From: Verrucomicrobiaceae bacterium
GTDB taxonomy: Bacteria > Verrucomicrobiota > Verrucomicrobiia > Verrucomicrobiales > Verrucomicrobiaceae
DNA: 64,000 bases
Direction of reading: 5' to 3'
NCBI GenBank assembly: GCA_947458455.1
Contig: CANGYJ010000006.1
Location: 186,001-250,000 of the forward strand
Shown here: positions 40,741 to 47,862 of the stretch, piece by piece
How positions within the stretch are numbered: position 1 is the stretch's first letter
Layout: every line of letters starts with the position of its first letter
Program-made: the position numbers and the translations under genes
Notes under the pieces: model-generated
Databases searched by the model: none
The model's input: only the letters and a program-made list of their open reading frames with translations
What the model was told of the DNA's origin: nothing

Positions 40741-40993
40741 TGGCTAGTGACTTTGAAGTTGGGTTAACGTTGTTTAATCACAATAAACTGTGGGCGAATC
40801 AGATTCGCTCACGGTTTACTTTGGAATAAACAGGCAAAAAGTGGGGTGAAAGAAGGTCATTCACGAAAAGAAAGGTTTTTGATGGATGGACCGATGGAAG
40901 CGAAAAAGTCTCCCGAGGTCAAGACTTGGGTGCGGCGGGTCGTCGAGGCAGCGAGTGTTTTCAGGCCAGCGAACGAGGAGAAAGATGATTGTT

Positions 40994-41047
40994 AGGAACA
41001 AGGAACGGGACTTGCCAAGTCCCTCCCTGAGGCACTTGGCAAGTGCC
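40994..41047. repeat. Heptads running into two tandem palindromes
   Basis: The 446-bp gene-free gap before the menC-like gene contains AGGAACA and AGGAACG in 7-base phase, then two hairpins: GGACTTG-C-CAAGTCC (41008-41022) and GGCACTTG-G-CAAGTGCC (41031-41047). Both share the core ACTTGG/CCAAGT. They lie 40 bases from the fold-back at 41089. The remaining part, 40741-40990, is A+T rich and shows nothing else. Confidence 0.8.
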
Positions 41048-41088
41048 TCTCCTTGATCGCGGGCTCGCCGATCCTGAAGCCGACAAGC

Positions 41089-41170
41089 ATGGTGGAACTG
41101 AAAAGGGAGGAATGGCGCTGTGGCTCGTGCCATTGGCCATTTTCAGTTCCTCCATTCTCAGTTCCACCAT
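41089..41170. repeat. Gene-less copy of the S23-element ends (fold-back)
   Basis: The left arm starts ATGGTGGAACTGAAAAGGGA (41089) and the right arm is the reverse complement of ATGGTGGAACTGAGAATGGA plus GGAACTGAAAATGG (41137-41170). The outer 13 bases match perfectly and 23 of the outer 25 match. Between the arms only a small hairpin (AATGGC/GCCATT) remains. The arms resemble those around the four-helix-bundle gene at 46217-46612, so this looks like a solo or internally deleted version of that element. Confidence 0.8.
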
Positions 41171-41186
41171 TCCCGCCTCAAACGCC

Positions 41187-42158
41187 TCACACCAGCCTGC
41201 GCCATGGCAGACCATCCAGCACCTCGCCAAAACCAAGACCTCCGCCGCTGTGATCGGCTGCGAGATAGCCGCCGTGTGATGTGACCCGCTCAAAGAAGGC
41301 GTCCTTCGCGAAAAGATGCTCGGTGCAGAGCCCGCAATAGTCGAGCGTGTATCCGGCGGCAGCTGCCGTGGCCGCTTCATAGGCGGCGAACATCTGGCCG
41401 AGTGCATGATCCATGGCGGAGGTCATCACGAGGCGCTTTTCAGGATGCTTTTCCGCCACCACACGCCAGTCACGACGGGCGGGTTTTACCACGACGGCGT
41501 CAAAGCCATGCGTACCGGACTTCCATCCTTTGTCGAGCGCCAGTGCCACACCCCAGCGCCGCCGAATGGCCTCCCAGGCCTCCGCCTCATACGGAAACGG
41601 GTCCTCCACAAAATCGAGCGCCCGATAAATGCGCAGCGGCATGAACTCGACGAATTTTTCAAACGTCATCCGATCCAGCACCCCATTAAAATCCACTCGA
41701 AGCCGCACGCCCTGCGTTTCAAAGCGCTTCGCGCAGCCTTCGAGAAAGCGGATCGTCTCGCCGTAGTTCGCGAACCCCTTCGCTTTGATGGCTCCCCAGC
41801 CTTCCTCCATCACCCGCTGCATCTGGGGCTCCGTCTCGGCGGCAAAGCTCCACGAATAATGGCTGCGCGGAATGCTCAAGCCCTCGAACAAGCTCACTCC
41901 TGCCCTTCTCGCCGCGCCGTCGATCTCCGCACAGCGCAGCGCCATCTCCGTGACCGGCGTGGTGATGCCCTCGGCGAGCAGCCGAAGCTGCTCCTCCACC
42001 GGCGCATCCCCAAACTCCGGCCACGGATGCACGCAGCCATAGCCGCCATTCACACACAGCAGCGCTCCCGCAAACACCCGCCGCTGCGACACGGCATTGA
42101 GAGCCGTGCCGCTCTTCAGCAGGTAGTCATGCACATAGATCGAGGGCATCTCACTCAT
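41187..42158 (-). CDS. Enolase-superfamily protein, probably o-succinylbenzoate synthase
   Basis: A 323-residue barrel enzyme. Visible features are an acidic N-terminal capping domain, KAKGFANYGETI with a catalytic-type Lys, LRVDFNGVLDR and DFVEDPFPYEAE carrying metal ligands, ALDKGWKSG, and VVVKPARRDW with the second Lys. This order is that of MenC in menaquinone biosynthesis, but N-succinylamino acid racemases share it. No other men gene is in the window. The stop lies 16 bases from the fold-back element at 41089-41170. The start at 42158 is the best ATG. Confidence 0.78.
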   Translation of the reverse strand: MSEMPSIYVHDYLLKSGTALNAVSQRRVFAGALLCVNGGYGCVHPWPEFGDAPVEEQLRLLAEGITTPVTEMALRCAEIDGAARRAGVSLFEGLSIPRSHYSWSFAAETEPQMQRVMEEGWGAIKAKGFANYGETIRFLEGCAKRFETQGVRLRVDFNGVLDRMTFEKFVEFMPLRIYRALDFVEDPFPYEAEAWEAIRRRWGVALALDKGWKSGTHGFDAVVVKPARRDWRVVAEKHPEKRLVMTSAMDHALGQMFAAYEAATAAAAGYTLDYCGLCTEHLFAKDAFFERVTSHGGYLAADHSGGGLGFGEVLDGLPWRRLV

Positions 42159-42162
42159 TGGA

Positions 42163-42276
42163 TCAAGCCTTCGCGAGTGCCTGATCGAGATTAAGGCGGC
42201 AGATCGACACGGTCCGGGAACCAGTGGTGGGATCAGGGACCTGACCGCCGTGGAGGCAACGAGTTTCGAGTTTCAT
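42163..42276 (-). pseudogene. Relic of an O-acetylhomoserine sulfhydrylase (metY) gene
   Basis: The 37-codon frame MKLETRCLHGGQVPDPTTGS reads as the exact N-terminus of MetY/cystathionine gamma-synthase-family enzymes (LETRCLHGGxxPDPTTGSR). After RTVSICRL it ends NLDQALAKA, which resembles the usual C-terminus of the same family (DLDQAL). The roughly 400 codons in between are missing. I infer a large internal deletion that left both ends joined. It lies 4 bases upstream of the menC-like gene start and 18 bases from a MITE end at 42294. Confidence 0.7.
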
Positions 42277-42293
42277 GGTGGAAGAGGGAGATG

Positions 42294-42567
42294 CTAGGCC
42301 GTGTTTGAAAACCATATTAGCGTCGAAAAAGGCGTCAGCAAAGTGGCCATCTCGCTCCGTCGAACCGACTGAAGGGAGATAGTCAGCCGTAGGCTGCCCG
42401 TAGGGTGGAGCGAAGCGACAGCAAATGAGCAAAAGGCTCTCGTTGACACCTGCACGTCCCGGAATTCGTCAACAGCTCAGCCTGCCTCACGCTTAGTTCC
42501 TCTCGCGGAGCGAGAGGACTACTTTGCTTCGCCCAGTCGCAGTCCTTGGTTTTCAAACACGCTCTAG
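42294..42567. mobile_element. MITE-like element copy A, CTAG ends
   Basis: The terminal inverted repeats are CTAGGCCGTGTTTGAAAACC (42294-42313) and, inverted, CTAGAGCGTGTTTGAAAACC (42548-42567): 18 of 20 match. A second inverted pair lies inside: GCAAAGTGGCCATCTCGCTC at 42338 against its complement at 42506-42527. The 274-bp element has no gene. It fills most of the 390-bp gap before btaA. The centre is unrelated to that of copy B at 44878. Confidence 0.85.
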
Positions 42568-42666
42568 CTGACGGTGCCCCAGCGTCAATGAGACGGCAGC
42601 CGTGCGTGACGAAAGCGACACGCGGCTGTGCTCGCAGGTCGGGCGCGACCTTGTTTCTTTTGAGGC

Positions 42667-43845
42667 ATGGTTAAACACGCCGCACGCCCCGTCCTCAAGG
42701 CCGCCCACGACATCGTCTTCAAGCACGTCCATGGCTCCAATCTCATCTACAACTGTGCCTGGGAGGACCCGCGGCTCGATCGCGAGATGCTCCGACTCGA
42801 TGCCACCTCGAAAGTCGTCATGATCACCAGCGCAGGCTGCAATGCGCTGGATTACCTGCTCGATGATCCCGCCGAGATTCATGCCATCGACATGAATTTC
42901 CGCCAAAACGCCCTGTTGGAACTCAAAATGGCCCTCATTACCCGCGGCAACTTCGAGGACCTGTTTGAGATGTTTGGAATCGGTTCGCACCCCTCCCACA
43001 AAACCCTCTACCAGGAAGTTCGCGAGACCTTAAGTGAATCCGCCCGCAAGTTTTGGGACAAGCGCATCACCTTCTTCAATCCCGGCAGCATGAAGAAATC
43101 CTTCTTCTACCACGGCACCTCCGGCCTCGCCGCCTGGGTGATGGGCCAGGCACTCTTCCGCCTGAAGCCAAACATCCGAAACTATGCCCTCGCTCTGCTC
43201 GATGCCACCACGCTCGATGAGCAGCGCACCGCCTGGGAAATGATCGAGCGGGAGGTGTGGACGGGCTTCATCGACTGGCTCGTGCGCCAGCCCGCCCTCA
43301 TGACGCTGCTCGGCGTGCCACGCCCGCAGATCAAGCTCATCCAGGACAGCTATCCCGGCGGCCTCAGCGGCTATGTGAAGGACAAGATGCGCCATGTTTT
43401 CACGGAGCTACCCGCAGCGGATAACTACTTCTGGCGAGTGTACATCACCGGCAGCTACACGCTGGCCTGCTGCCCAAACTACCTCCGCCGCGAAAACCAA
43501 GACGTTCTCCGCGCTCGTGTGAACCGGCTGAAGCCCTACACCACCACGATCTCGAATTTCCTCCGCGAGCACCCCGGCGAATACTCCCACTTCATCCTGC
43601 TCGACCACCAGGACTGGCTCGCCGCGCATGACACCCAGGCCCTGCGTGAAGAATGGGAGCTCATCTTTGCCAATAGCCGTCCAGGCGCAAAGATCCTCAT
43701 GCGCAGCGCCGGCCTCGAAGTCGATTTCATCCCAGAAAGCATCCGCGCCCGCCTCCGCTTCCAGCCAGAAATCACCACGCGGCTGCATCCGCGGGATCGC
43801 GTGGGAACCTACGGCAGCACCCACTTCGCCGAAATCCTGCCATGA
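42667..43845 (+). CDS. btaA: BtaA-like 3-amino-3-carboxypropyl transferase
   Basis: A 392-residue DUF3419 protein. BtaA moves the 3-amino-3-carboxypropyl group of S-adenosylmethionine onto diacylglycerol, the first step to the betaine lipid DGTS. Conserved stretches are LIYNCAWEDPRLDREML (residues 25-41), VVMITSAGCNALDYLLDDP, HAIDMNFRQNALLELK, FFYHGTSGLAAW, and the C-terminal YSHFILLDHQDWL followed by RPGAKILMRSAG. The start may be the ATG at 42667 (MVKHAARPV). It overlaps btaB by four bases (ATGA), the standard btaAB coupling. Confidence 0.9.
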   Translation: MVKHAARPVLKAAHDIVFKHVHGSNLIYNCAWEDPRLDREMLRLDATSKVVMITSAGCNALDYLLDDPAEIHAIDMNFRQNALLELKMALITRGNFEDLFEMFGIGSHPSHKTLYQEVRETLSESARKFWDKRITFFNPGSMKKSFFYHGTSGLAAWVMGQALFRLKPNIRNYALALLDATTLDEQRTAWEMIEREVWTGFIDWLVRQPALMTLLGVPRPQIKLIQDSYPGGLSGYVKDKMRHVFTELPAADNYFWRVYITGSYTLACCPNYLRRENQDVLRARVNRLKPYTTTISNFLREHPGEYSHFILLDHQDWLAAHDTQALREEWELIFANSRPGAKILMRSAGLEVDFIPESIRARLRFQPEITTRLHPRDRVGTYGSTHFAEILP

Positions 43846-44468
43846 ATGCCGCCACTGCGCCCCACGAAGCACTTCAGGGCTACTACGCTCTCCACGCCCG
43901 CATCTACGACGCCACCCGCTGGAGCTTCCTCTTCGGACGCGATGCCATCGTCCAGCGTGCCGCCAGCTTCATCAGCCCGCGCCGCATTCTCGAAGTCGGC
44001 TGCGGCACCGGAAGGAACCTTCTGCGTCTCCGTCGGCAGTTTCCAGAAGCCGAGATCACCGGCCTCGACCTCAGCGCCGACATGCTCCGCATCGCACGGA
44101 CCAAGGTGGATGGCGTCCAACTCATCCAGCAATCCTACGACGCTCCAGCGGGCGGTTTTGATCTCATCCTGTGCTCCTATGCCCTGAGCATGTTCAATCC
44201 CGGCTGGGACCGCGCCATCGAGACCGCCGCCCAGGATTTGAATCCTGGCGGCATCATCGCCGTGGTCGATTTTTCTCACACGGACTCGCTGTGGTTCGAG
44301 CAGTGGATGCAAAAAAACCACGTCCGCATGCAGGGCCATCTCTGGCCCCAACTGCGATCCGCCTTCACTACCCTGAGCGATACCCGCCACCGCGCCTACC
44401 TAGGCTGGTGGAATTACGGCATGTTCATCGGCCGCAAGCAGGAAGCTGCATCTTCGCTTACGCGATGA
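43842..44468 (+). CDS. btaB: BtaB-like SAM-dependent N-methyltransferase
   Basis: A 208-residue class I methyltransferase. The SAM-binding motif ILEVGCGTGRNLL is at about residues 49-61, and TGLDLSADMLRIA is motif II. FDLILCSYALSMFNP and GGIIAVVDFSH complete the fold. In betaine lipid synthesis BtaB adds three methyl groups to the amino group made by BtaA. The overlap with btaA and the typical BtaB tail (YLGWWNYGMFIGRK) support the call. After the stop an 800-bp gene-free region begins, containing a MITE and a broken NERD gene. Confidence 0.88.
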   Translation: MNAATAPHEALQGYYALHARIYDATRWSFLFGRDAIVQRAASFISPRRILEVGCGTGRNLLRLRRQFPEAEITGLDLSADMLRIARTKVDGVQLIQQSYDAPAGGFDLILCSYALSMFNPGWDRAIETAAQDLNPGGIIAVVDFSHTDSLWFEQWMQKNHVRMQGHLWPQLRSAFTTLSDTRHRAYLGWWNYGMFIGRKQEAASSLTR

Positions 44469-44727
44469 GGGGGGGGATTTTTGAGGCCTTACACGAAGAC
44501 ACAAAGGGTGAGTTGGTCTCACGAAGAATGCTTAGTGCCTTTGTGACTTTATATGAGCTTCTGCTTTCGAGGCAGGAGGTGTATTCGGTTACCGGGCTTC
44601 GATCTGCATAGTAGATGCAGTGTCTTTCGATCCGACTTTTCACCTACGCAAAGCCTGTCGCCTTCGCGTCTCAAACTCCAGAAGGAATGTCGCGTGACAG
44701 CAGCGAGGAGGGTGTGGAAATTTTGGG

Positions 44728-45160
44728 ATGATTCCTCTCAGCGCATTGAATACAATTCCGGTCGAGCAAATCCAGTCTGGCCTCCTTAAGGTGCTTTTGA
44801 TCCCACTGGTGTTCGCCGCAGTGCTTATTTTGCGCAATTACATACGCCGCCGCTGGCTGCCGAAATCAAAGGGCAACCTAGGCCGTGTTTGAAAACCATC
44901 TGGGGCACTCGAATGATGCGACAGCAGAGTAGCCATCTCGCTCCGTCGAGATGAGCTTGGCGCTTCTCAAAGCCCCCGGCTTACGAGTTGTGGGAATCCA
45001 ACATGCTGGCGAAAGCCTCCCGCTCATCTCGCGGAGCGAGATGGCCACTTTGCTTCGCCAGATCGTCATCGGTAGGTTTTCAAATACAACCTAGGCGAGT
45101 GGGCGATGAACCAGCAGCTGCTCAAAAAGCTCGACCCAAACCGCAGTCATGTGCTTTCTT
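44728..45160 (+). pseudogene. NERD-domain membrane protein relic split by a MITE
   Basis: The ATG at 44728 opens MIPLSALNTIPVEQIQSG, a membrane helix (VLLIPLVFAAVLIL) and RRRWLPKSKGN. The MITE at 44878-45094 interrupts here. When one CTAG and the element are removed, the frame continues as LGEWAMNQQLLKKLDPNRSH-VLSYLPS, the start of a nuclease-related (NERD) domain, whose usual pattern is KGxxGEWxVNxLLxxLDPxxYHVL. Downstream the similarity stops, so the gene was also truncated. Bases 44469-44727 before it hold no gene but contain an imperfect CACAAAGG/CCTTTGTG inverted pair (near 44499 and 44541). Confidence 0.7.
44878..45094. mobile_element. MITE-like element copy B, inserted in a NERD-type gene
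   Basis: A 217-bp element with ends CTAGGCCGTGTTTGAAAACC (44878-44897) and the inverted CTAGGTTGTATTTGAAAACC (45075-45094), 17 of 20 matching. The inner inverted pair GCAGAGTAGCCATCTCGCTC (44924) and its complement at 45032-45053 is 20/22 identical; the right copy is identical to the left one of element A. No gene inside. CTAG at both borders is either part of the inverted repeat or a 4-bp target duplication. Confidence 0.87.
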
Positions 45161-45203
45161 ATCTACCATCCAAGGTCACGGCCATGCCTGAAATTGCCCA
45201 ATC

Positions 45204-45271
45204 GGGCCGGATAGTTCGGCGAAGGTCACGGCTCGTGTGAGCCGTGCGTTTTGCGCCGAACACATCCGCCC
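45204..45271. repeat. Two-level palindrome at the end of dapA
   Basis: The outer arms GGGCCGGATAGTTCGGCG (45204-45221) and CGCCGAACACATCCGCCC (45254-45271) pair with a few mismatches. The inner stem is CACGGCTC-GTGT-GAGCCGTG (45227-45246), perfect. The right end overlaps the dapA stop codon. It could serve as a terminator in the dapA direction but lacks a T-tract. Confidence 0.8.
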
Positions 45272-46152
45272 TACGAGATGAGCCCGAGCTGCTTCAGCGT
45301 GGCGGCGAGTTCGTCCACCTTGGCTTTTTCCATGCCCACGAGGGGAAGGCGCAGCTCATCGGAGCAGTGACCCGCCAGCGCCATCGCCGTTTTGATCGGG
45401 ATGGGATTGGTGGCGAGCTTCAGGAAGGCGGCGAAGAGCGGGTAATACTTCGCGTGGATCGTGTAGGCGGAGGCGTAATCGCCTTGGAGGGCGAGGTTCA
45501 CGAGATCACTCATCTGTTTCGGAATGAGGTTCCCGGCCACGCTGACGATGCCGCAACCGCCCACGGACATGAAGGGCAGCGTGAGGCCATCATCGCCAGA
45601 CAGGATTTCGAAATCGGCGGGCAGGATCTGCTTCATCTGACTGACCCGTTCGGCATTGCCGCCCGCCTCTTTGATGGAACGAATGTTCGGGCAGCTCTCG
45701 GCGAGGCGCACGAGCACCTCGAGACTGATCTCAATGCCGCAGCGACCGGGGATGCTGTATAGCATGATGGGCAGCTTGGTGTTGTCCGCGATGGCCTTGA
45801 AATGCTGATACAGACCCTCGGGCGTGGGCTTGTTGTAGTAAGGAGCCACTTGGAGAGAAGCGGTCGCGCCAGCGGCCTCGGCTTCCTGAGTCAACTCGAT
45901 GGCCTCGCGGGTGGAATTCGATCCTGTGCCCGCCATCACGACGCCACGGCCCTTGGCGAACTCGACCGCCAGTTTCACGACCTGCTCATGCTCATCGTGA
46001 TCGAGTGTGGGCGATTCCCCCGTGGTGCCGCAGGGCACGATGCCCGTCACGCCATTGTCGAACTGGAAATCGACGAGACGTTTGAGCGCGGCCTCATCAA
46101 TTTGGCCGTTCTTAAAAGGGGTGACAATGGCGGTGTGGGTTCCTGCGAACAT
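45271..46152 (-). CDS. dapA: 4-hydroxy-tetrahydrodipicolinate synthase
   Basis: A 293-residue aldolase of the lysine/diaminopimelate pathway that condenses pyruvate with aspartate semialdehyde. The Schiff-base lysine is K161 in RSIKEAGG, the proton-relay tyrosine is Y132 in MLYSIPGRCG, and the pyruvate-carboxylate loop is GTTGES at residues 42-47. The length is normal. It lies downstream of dapF on the same strand; the 513 bases between them are filled by a four-helix-bundle gene with inverted ends. A palindrome overlaps its stop. Confidence 0.97.
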   Translation of the reverse strand: MFAGTHTAIVTPFKNGQIDEAALKRLVDFQFDNGVTGIVPCGTTGESPTLDHDEHEQVVKLAVEFAKGRGVVMAGTGSNSTREAIELTQEAEAAGATASLQVAPYYNKPTPEGLYQHFKAIADNTKLPIMLYSIPGRCGIEISLEVLVRLAESCPNIRSIKEAGGNAERVSQMKQILPADFEILSGDDGLTLPFMSVGGCGIVSVAGNLIPKQMSDLVNLALQGDYASAYTIHAKYYPLFAAFLKLATNPIPIKTAMALAGHCSDELRLPLVGMEKAKVDELAATLKQLGLIS

Positions 46153-46162
46153 GGAGGTAGGG

Positions 46163-46649
46163 ATGAAAGAACTGAAAAAGGAGGAACTGAGAATGGAAAA
46201 TGAGATGACGCGATACTTAGCGACGTTTTTTGGTGGGTTCGACGGCTTTGGCGGTGGTGATCAACTTGCCGGTGATGTTCATCAGTTCCGTGCATTCATC
46301 TATCAGAGGCTGCAAGCGTTTTGCTGGGAGGCATTTGCTTCGGATGGCAAGCTTTAGCCACTCCCGAGTCTCCCGCAATTCTTTGAGCACGATGCCAAGC
46401 TTATGCACAAAGTCAGCCCGGCTTTCCGCCGCGCAAGCTTCGGCGTAATTGGGTGCTGGAGATGTGCCGGAGCGGATCATCTGACCAGCGATATGCCTGC
46501 CCTTGCGGTTATCAGGCAAGCTCTCGACGACCTCACAGACACGGGAAGCAAATTCGATGAAACGATCTTCCATCGCATCTGCCCAGTCGAGCTTCGTAAG
46601 TCGCTGATCCATTTTCAGTTCCTCCATTCTCAGTTTTCAGTTCTTCCAT
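46163..46649 (-). mobile_element. S23/four-helix-bundle element between dapF and dapA
   Basis: The element consists of one small gene bounded by inverted ends built of heptad-like units. The left end on the plus strand opens ATGAAAGAACTGAAAA (46163); the right end, inverted, opens ATGGAAGAACTGAAAA (46649), 15 of 16 matching. Inside the arms the modules AATGGAG, GAACTGA and GGAGGAACTGA appear in a different order. It separates two genes of one pathway by 513 bases, leaving 10-16 bases outside the element on each side. No transposase and no clear target duplication are visible. Confidence 0.72.
46217..46612 (-). CDS. Four-helix-bundle protein of the S23/IVP family (TIGR02436 type)
   Basis: The start chosen is ATG 46612 (MDQRLTKLDWADAM), which has GGAGG eight bases upstream; an alternative ATG at 46627 adds five repeat-encoded residues. 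The 131-residue helical protein has the family pattern: FIEFASRVCEVVESLP, GRHIAGQMIRSGTSPAPNYA, AESRADFVHKLGIVLKELRE and a basic C-terminal tail. Relatives are encoded in 23S rRNA intervening sequences and as the Avd protein of diversity-generating retroelements; the stand-alone role is unknown. Its Shine-Dalgarno sequence is part of the element's right inverted arm. Confidence 0.88.
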   Translation of the reverse strand: MDQRLTKLDWADAMEDRFIEFASRVCEVVESLPDNRKGRHIAGQMIRSGTSPAPNYAEACAAESRADFVHKLGIVLKELRETREWLKLAIRSKCLPAKRLQPLIDECTELMNITGKLITTAKAVEPTKKRR

Positions 46650-46665
46650 GCTGGGAAGCCTCCGC

Positions 46666-47478
46666 TCAAATCGAGACGCTTCCTTCAAACACAAAATCCG
46701 CCGGACCAAACAGCGTCACATTCGTGTACTCGCTCTTGTTCGGCTCTTCGAATCCGACTTTCAACGTGTCGCCGCCCTTCACGAGGACGCTCACGGGGCT
46801 GGTGACACCCGTCAGCTCGTGGTGAATCAAGGCGCAGGCCACCATGCCGGTGCCGCAGGCCAGAGTTTCATCTTCCACACCGCGCTCGTAGGTGCGGATG
46901 GCGATGCTGCCAGGAGCGAGCACCTTGGCAAAGTTCGCATTCGTGCCCTTCGGCTTGAAGGCCTCTTGGTAACGAAGACTCGCGCCCCATTCGCGGACAG
47001 GGACGCTTTGAAGTTCCTCGACGAAAACGACCGCATGCGGCACGCCCGTATTGACGCTGTGGACGGTTAAATCCGTGCCAGCCACTGGCAGCGTCTGCGC
47101 CAGTTTCAGGCTGTGCGGAGCACTCATGTTGATGCGCACCTGCCCTGCCTCGAATTCAGCGCTGATCATGCCCGCGAGCGTTTCAAAGCGGATCTTCGTG
47201 AGCGTGTCAGCATGCAGGTGATTCACGAAGCGCCCAAAGCAGCGGGCGCCGTTGCCACACATCTCCGCCTCGCCGCCATCGGCGTTGTAGTAGCGCATTT
47301 TGAAATCGCCGCCCTCGGTGGCGGGCTCCACGCAGAGAAGGCCATCCGCGCCGATGCCACGATGGCGGTCACACAGCTTCTCGATCTGCTCCTGGGTGAG
47401 AGAGAGCTTCAGGTCGCGATTGTCCAGCATGACGAAGTCATTGCCAGCGCCGTTCATTTTGGTGAATTGGAGGGTCAT
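46666..47478 (-). CDS. dapF: Diaminopimelate epimerase
   Basis: A 270-residue enzyme that interconverts LL- and meso-diaminopimelate for lysine and peptidoglycan. The two catalytic cysteines sit in AEMCGNGARC (C74) and in ETLACGTGMVA near residue 216. The start MTLQFTKMNGAGNDFVMLDN is canonical. dapF and dapA are commonly neighbours in related genomes; here the S23 element intervenes. The 46650-46665 spacer between its stop and the element is only 16 bases. Confidence 0.97.
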   Translation of the reverse strand: MTLQFTKMNGAGNDFVMLDNRDLKLSLTQEQIEKLCDRHRGIGADGLLCVEPATEGGDFKMRYYNADGGEAEMCGNGARCFGRFVNHLHADTLTKIRFETLAGMISAEFEAGQVRINMSAPHSLKLAQTLPVAGTDLTVHSVNTGVPHAVVFVEELQSVPVREWGASLRYQEAFKPKGTNANFAKVLAPGSIAIRTYERGVEDETLACGTGMVACALIHHELTGVTSPVSVLVKGGDTLKVGFEEPNKSEYTNVTLFGPADFVFEGSVSI

Positions 47479-47550
47479 GGAAAAGGACGCAGAGTCAAAG
47501 CGAGGGCCGTGGAGCGGTCAAGAAGGTCCAACATCAAGGAGGGCTGACAA

Positions 47551-47862
47551 CTATTTGCCTTCAAACCGCCCCTCCCAGTATTCTTCGCCTCGTCGTTCAT
47601 GGACGATAGCGATGATTTCCAGAGTGTCCGGCTCCGATGGCAGCCGGCGATAGACGATCCAGTGAGACTGCCGGTGGACCTTGCGCCTCAGCGTGCCGTG
47701 ACGCCCACGGATGTTAGAGTCTGGATGCGCCTGAACGTAGGCGATGGCAGCTTCGACGCGCTGAATGAACAAGCGGGCATTCTGCTCCGAATCTTGGGCG
47801 ATATAGGCTGCCGACTCACGATACTCTTCGAGCGCCTGCTTCTGGAAAATGATTTTCATCAA
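47551..47862 (-). CDS. ParE/RelE-family toxin
   Basis: A 103-residue basic protein of the ParE type. MKIIFQKQALEEYRESAAYI opens the fold, NARLFIQRVEAAIAYVQAHP is the second helix, then IRGRHGTLRRKVHRQSHWIV and LEIIAIVHERRGEEYW give the C-terminal strands with the usual Arg/His/Glu cluster. ParE toxins poison gyrase; RelE relatives cleave mRNA. The start is ATG 47862 or 47859. It overlaps the antitoxin gene by four bases, with the antitoxin first, the standard TA order. Confidence 0.9.
   Translation of the reverse strand: MMKIIFQKQALEEYRESAAYIAQDSEQNARLFIQRVEAAIAYVQAHPDSNIRGRHGTLRRKVHRQSHWIVYRRLPSEPDTLEIIAIVHERRGEEYWEGRFEGK

Follow-up and report, generated by a model that had tools for sequence, protein, structure and literature searches.

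The gene and its arms between dapF and dapA

All coordinates are positions within the window, the whole 64,000-nt stretch of DNA that was analysed. The locus consists of dapF (diaminopimelate epimerase, 46666..47478), a small gene of the four-helix-bundle (FHB) type (46217..46612) and dapA (dihydrodipicolinate synthase, an ORF at 45271..46152), all on the minus strand, with dapF upstream and dapA downstream of the FHB gene. The order of dapF and dapA is conserved among relatives. Here the gap between them is 513 bp, and the FHB gene is the single small ORF within it. Its reading frame is open from 46627, and the likely start is the ATG at 46612, which is linked to a Shine-Dalgarno sequence and gives a protein of 131 aa. 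A profile search matches the ORF to PF05635 (23S_rRNA_IVP) with E=1.3e-17 and 64.4 bits against a curated cut-off of 33.8. The AlphaFold2 model (pLDDT 91) finds its best match in the PDB in 2RLD (E=1.4e-6), followed by 2GSC and then by Avd (8UB7/4DWL). Profile score and four-helix-bundle fold place the protein in the S23/23S rRNA-IVP family, as the first-pass annotation had proposed for the ORF in this gap. To our knowledge, function in this large family is known only for rRNA inserts and for Avd, the DGR partner. Both 2RLD and 2GSC are S23 proteins whose crystals hold five chains each, and by analogy with these solved relatives the protein probably forms a pentameric ring. It is basic (pI 9.2, net charge +4.7), and its gene has a dN/dS of 0.036 relative to the copy in genome G016.

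The gene is bracketed by two heptad-built arms. The left (5') arm lies at 46608..46649 on the minus strand (ATGGAAGAACTGAAAACTGAGAATGGAGGAACTGAAAATGGA in the minus-strand sense), and the right (3') arm, at 46163..46197 on the plus strand, is its reverse complement (ATGAAAGAACTGAAAAAGGAGGAACTGAGAATGGA). Aligned in inverted orientation, the two differ by three mismatches and a single gap whose length is exactly one heptad (7 bp); on realignment 15 of the 16 outer bases match, the same count as first reported. This alignment scores 41, whereas none of 2000 shuffles exceeds 29. The left arm also includes the start codon and, as had been claimed, the Shine-Dalgarno sequence (GGAGG, 46625-46621), which lies 8 nt ahead of the ATG. 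This placement suggests self-regulation of the gene. In the predicted RNA fold the arms pair into a stem that encloses the ORF (z=-3.77). A known structured RNA is rejected on the basis of an Rfam search over 40900-47600, which gave no match.

Occupancy of the site in relatives

For comparison of the site, dapF was located in 23 additional genus genomes as well as in outgroup genera. The gap is empty in eight genus genomes (15–31 bp) and in five outgroup genera (42–98 bp), and these empty sites rule out a fixed operon gene. An FHB gene with arms occupies the gap in six genomes (the source genome G000, G016, G013, G001, G012 and G009). Eroded FHB remnants are present in three more (G015, G005 and G018), and G005 retains both arms. 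In G003, G010 and G022 (L029, L030 and L036) the gap carries a different insert of ~548 bp without heptad arms, whose two small ORFs resemble DUF4160 and DUF2442 proteins as judged by eye.

Five of the FHB proteins at this site form one clade in the protein tree (SH-aLRT 93), and the sixth, from G009, is not placed. The nearest relatives of the clade are planctomycete proteins (e.g. 66% identity to one from Rhodopirellula europaea). The dapF/dapA host tree interleaves occupied and empty genomes, and it is so poorly resolved that gain, loss and allele replacement are not separable on it. The final dapF codons differ consistently between occupied and empty alleles, which suggests allele replacement by recombination. 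The dapF C-terminus (L019-L042) reads ...FQGTVQL in most empty-site genomes and ...F(T/E)GSVSI or similar in occupied ones. From these comparisons we infer that the dapF-dapA copy is an inherited old insertion and not a recent jump, with a single old arrival within the genus followed by repeated loss, erosion or replacement. No target-site duplication is definable, because empty and filled sites at dapF-dapA, and at the nuoM-nuoN gap described below, are too diverged for exact junctions.

Inverted arms around other members of the family

The source genome carries ten PF05635 genes. When the ten upstream flanks are compared with the ten reverse-complemented downstream flanks, the high scores fall on the diagonal, i.e. 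each copy has a repeat of its own, although the sister copies L011 and L012 share one. These copy-specific arms rule out a single terminal repeat common to all FHB copies.

The wider survey includes 191 copies, 118 from the genus and 73 from other species; because the set contains orthologs and a handful of duplicated records, its members are not all independent. A flank arm score of at least 29 is reached by 78% of the 191 copies; among 731 displaced controls with identical geometry the share is 0.27% (Mann-Whitney p=5e-80). The ~22% of copies without clear arms at this score are explained in part by contig ends and decay. Together with the shuffle scores at dapF-dapA, the displaced controls exclude a chance inverted repeat. 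An independent plasmid set, collected with a different FHB protein as query, contains 14 loci (12 cyanobacterial, one from Gemmatirosa and one from Azospirillum). All 14 have inverted tandem-repeat arms, as compared with 2 of 56 controls, and the repeats include TAGGGAG, AGGGAAC and AGTCAGG. On plasmids of Pseudanabaena galeata (L370) and Anabaena sp. 90 (L377), the heptad-armed FHB gene sits between CRISPR cas6 and cas4, the locus in Anabaena sp. 90 being of type I-D.

Arm autocorrelation has its maxima at lags 7, 14 and 21. The best lag is 7 in 56 of 94 genus arms and in 55 of 63 arms from other phyla, the remainder being 6, 8, 10 and a few others. The hosts include Verrucomicrobiota, Planctomycetota, Bacteroidota, Acidobacteriota, Ignavibacteriota, Kiritimatiellota, Lentisphaerota, Thermodesulfobacteriota, Myxococcota, Chloroflexota, Cloacimonadota, Cyanobacteriota, Gemmatimonadota and Pseudomonadota. 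The genes lie in operon gaps, mostly downstream of a co-directional gene, and a median dN/dS of 0.095 (n=136) shows that purifying selection acts on them. We regard the association of FHB gene and heptad arms across the family as practically certain.

The first-pass annotation had described an element of an undescribed type. Its anatomy stands, but it is no peculiarity of this locus, since a heptad-armed four-helix bundle is the rule for the gene family. The two situations named at the outset as fatal to the idea of an element, a gene fixed in all relatives and arms absent from other copies, do not occur: empty sites are present, and most copies at unrelated sites are armed.

Gene-less arm pairs

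The arms also occur without a gene. A REPIN-like hairpin of the dapF-dapA arm family is found by pattern match at 41089..41170, where gene-less arms had already been noticed, and the genome holds more hairpins of this family at other places. This family has 16 pattern matches in the source genome and none for the reversed-pattern control, and its gene-less copies are mostly hairpins of ~80–110 bp. A BLAST-type arm search scored 40 of 202 candidates; its counts are lower bounds, and the pattern counts are therefore used for comparisons. REP-like palindromes (GGGACTTGCCAAGTCCC / GGCACTTGGCAAGTGCC) adjoin the gene-less hairpins of the dapF-dapA family at 41003-41066 and also at L003 and L006. The ~70 bp between palindromes and hairpins is common to the copies, as if a composite unit had been copied.

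The arm family of a second FHB copy in the source genome, L016 (CGAGGACGAG...), has 17 matches there, and many of these form inverted pairs on either side of an intergenic gap. One such gene-less pair fills the gap between nuoM and nuoN, which is 263 bp in the source genome only and -1 to 15 bp in ten relatives. The sequence between gene-less arms of this family (CGAGGACGAG) is not conserved, unlike that of a copied hairpin. All 10 genus genomes with the matching FHB gene contain arms of the L016 family (11.6 copies on average), as do 11 of the 29 genomes without that gene (average 2.7 over all 29); the difference has Fisher p=0.0006 over the 39 genomes, not corrected for phylogeny. For the 11 genomes with arms in which the matching gene was not found, either the draft state of the genomes or arms that outlast their gene would account for the pattern. 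In relatives, two short operon gaps, PdhB-PdhC (L295-L304) and DUF58-BatA (L298, L301), hold heptad-like arms (CATTCGTCATTC...) that stand singly and belong to other families, so that many of the small gaps in this genus are filled by heptad sequence.

The element class thus consists of a single S23/IVP-type FHB gene, inverted arms of ~7-bp repeats and dispersed gene-less arm pairs, and both its gene-bearing and its gene-less forms are polymorphic for insertion. The strong purifying selection, the start signals inside the arm and the operon-gap location, mostly downstream of co-directional genes, would also suit a fixed regulatory cassette, in which the FHB protein binds arm hairpins in its own and other mRNAs and tunes their stability or translation, the arms forming its regulon. 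However, presence and absence between close relatives at dapF-dapA and nuoM-nuoN, near-identical arms at many unrelated loci, and the scatter of the genes across phyla all indicate dispersal. A fixed cassette is consequently unlikely, although a regulatory role and a mobile element are compatible readings and do not exclude each other.

Arms and gene as one unit

Most FHB pairs with >60% identity share flanking genes, as in vertical inheritance; about 80 pairs share none. In the source genome L011 and L012 (84% identical) have unrelated neighbours, and their homology starts in the arm and stops with the gene. At unrelated sites the same arm family is found in 0.1% of pairs with <30% protein identity, 2.8% at 30–40%, 2.6% at 40–50%, 10% at 50–60%, 26% at 60–70% and 73.5% at >=70% (n=34). 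The last value is near the 80% of shared-site pairs that have the same arm family. Given this climb with protein identity, arms and gene form one unit, whether they travel together or are matched to each other. At shared sites the left and right arms tend to co-vary (160 of 217 comparisons positive and 41 negative, the pairs not being independent).

Some insertion sequences target REPs, and FHB genes could likewise insert into pre-existing heptad hairpins spread by something else, the arms then being a property of the landing site. Gene-less arms are indeed common and present also without a matching FHB gene, and L014 and L015, which are 75% identical and lie in the same genome, have different arm families. 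However, random targeting predicts no link between arm family and protein identity at unrelated sites, and the homology of L011 and L012 takes in the arm and stops there. The arms are therefore not random landing pads, and we consider this explanation improbable. Instead, the unit of arm and gene has probably been mobile over evolutionary time, in line with the initial reading of gene and arms as one mobile element. The further description of the gene as cargo is doubtful. The arms are matched to the protein, on which purifying selection is strong, and the FHB gene therefore looks like a partner that belongs to the element.

Candidate movers

The arms might also be spread in trans by a Y1/RAYT transposase or a reverse transcriptase, with the FHB protein as a passenger or accessory. 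Y1_Tnp genes are present in all 39 genus genomes, and the FHB fold is common to Avd, the partner of the DGR reverse transcriptase. However, inverted repeats of a GC-rich palindromic type clearly flank 14 of the 20 Y1 loci sampled, and heptad-like repeats flank none; the loci with palindromes serve as an internal positive control for the flank method. The search for PF00078 reverse transcriptases gave no match in the whole source assembly or in the FHB-rich genomes G005, G016 and G002. Such a mover in trans therefore seems improbable as well. In many cases the Y1/RAYT-type genes of the genus (L329-L348) stand between long REP pairs that are inverted and GC-rich (e.g. AGCCCTGAAAGGGCG...).

The notion that the heptads are REPs of local RAYTs is unsupported, since the sampled RAYT-type genes carry other repeats, and so is a reverse transcriptase as obligatory partner. 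These observations argue that RAYT-REP and FHB-heptad are parallel systems. They also leave the earlier suggestion of mobilisation in trans unproven, as the sampled short RAYT-type genes have GC-rich REPs of their own and no reverse transcriptase was found. Because the sampled RAYTs carry other repeats and reverse transcriptases were not detected, the FHB protein itself is proposed here as the promoter of arm spread.

Interpretation

The reading that best fits these data, to which we give a probability of roughly 0.6, is a hairpin element similar to both RAYT/REPIN systems and 23S rRNA intervening sequences (IVSs), with the FHB protein as its matched partner and not mere cargo. The basic FHB protein would recognise the heptad hairpin of its own element, in the form of either RNA or single-stranded DNA, and would promote the spread and homogenisation of its own arm family, as RAYTs do for REPINs. 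The cutting and joining enzyme may be supplied by the host or by another element. Insertion would be tolerated mainly in gaps between cistrons, where a cut of the transcript at the arm stem, such as RNase III makes in an IVS, would be harmless. On the dapF-dapA site, the element would have arrived once in the genus and later been lost, eroded or replaced in several lineages. That the FHB protein is the driver of its arm family is a tentative step, held at slightly under even odds.

The general pairing of gene and repeat is a larger finding than the single-locus claim from which it started. It makes the FHB-arm layout a candidate source of heptamer repeats of so far unexplained origin. With pairing in at least a dozen phyla, it joins these repeats with the S23/IVP family so that both become testable, and each heptamer repeat family would gain a named protein partner. 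It would also turn 23S intervening sequences, hitherto a curiosity of rRNA, into one case of a general class of hairpin elements between cistrons. In the broadest form of the proposal, which falls a little short of an even bet, S23/IVP-type FHB proteins are the dedicated partners, and probably the drivers, of the heptamer repeats of bacteria in general (STRR and the like), in a new REPIN-like class where a non-enzymatic ring of the Avd fold that binds RNA or DNA replaces the transposase and both defines and spreads its repeat family. If this is true, the classical 23S rRNA IVS is the rRNA-resident form of the FHB-heptad element.

Comparison with known systems

The FHB protein shares its four-helix-bundle fold with Avd of DGRs (4DWL and 8UB7, TM about 0.67–0.68 by query length), but in contrast to a DGR no PF00078 reverse transcriptase was found near the element or elsewhere in the assembly.

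The likeness to RAYTs (TnpA-REP) is closer. These are vertically kept genes with inverted-repeat flanks, gene-specific repeats and dispersed gene-less pairs (PMC3116915, PMC8266576). The FHB element also has one vertically kept gene between inverted repeats that are dispersed as gene-less pairs, and its repeat family is gene-specific. However, it encodes no Y1/HUH transposase (PF01797) or HUH motif, the sole gene inside the arms being that of PF05635, and its arms consist of short-period tandem repeats, where RAYTs have a GC-rich palindrome. The same genomes contain both FHB elements and RAYTs with REPs of their own.

Heptamer repeats such as TAACTGA are on record from Beggiatoaceae, cyanobacteria (there also as STRR) and Bacteroidetes; no mechanism is evident for them, and a protein that binds the repeat has been suggested as the possible mobile element (PMC4679880). 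GGGAATC repeats occur in Xanthomonas and Nostoc, with ~70 inverted pairs per genome in Xanthomonas (PMC4692102). Like the FHB arms, these are all tandem repeats, short and intergenic, with a unit of 7 bp, and the arms of the cyanobacterial plasmid FHB genes are such repeats. Unlike the FHB arms, they come with no partner gene named in either paper (PMC4679880, PMC4692102). A literature search limited to sources outside subscription journals returned no paper tying S23/IVP (PF05635) genes to heptamer repeats. Xanthomonas campestris has both the solved S23 protein XCC0516 (PDB 2GSC) and GGGAATC heptamer pairs (PMC4692102).

In the 23S rRNA IVS an S23p/IVP gene lies between ends that are complementary, and RNase III excises the element (PMC4990558). 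In Coxiella burnetii the terminal inverted repeats of the IVS pair in the RNA as a 28-bp stem, and this sporadic element has been called selfish (PMC4990558). The dapF-dapA element likewise consists of a PF05635-family ORF inside inverted ends that are able to pair in RNA, and its predicted fold shows the stem around the ORF. It differs in its position between protein-coding genes, in its heptad-built arms and in its gene-less copies throughout the genome. As it does not lie inside an rRNA gene it is not an IVS by definition, but by analogy it may work like one.
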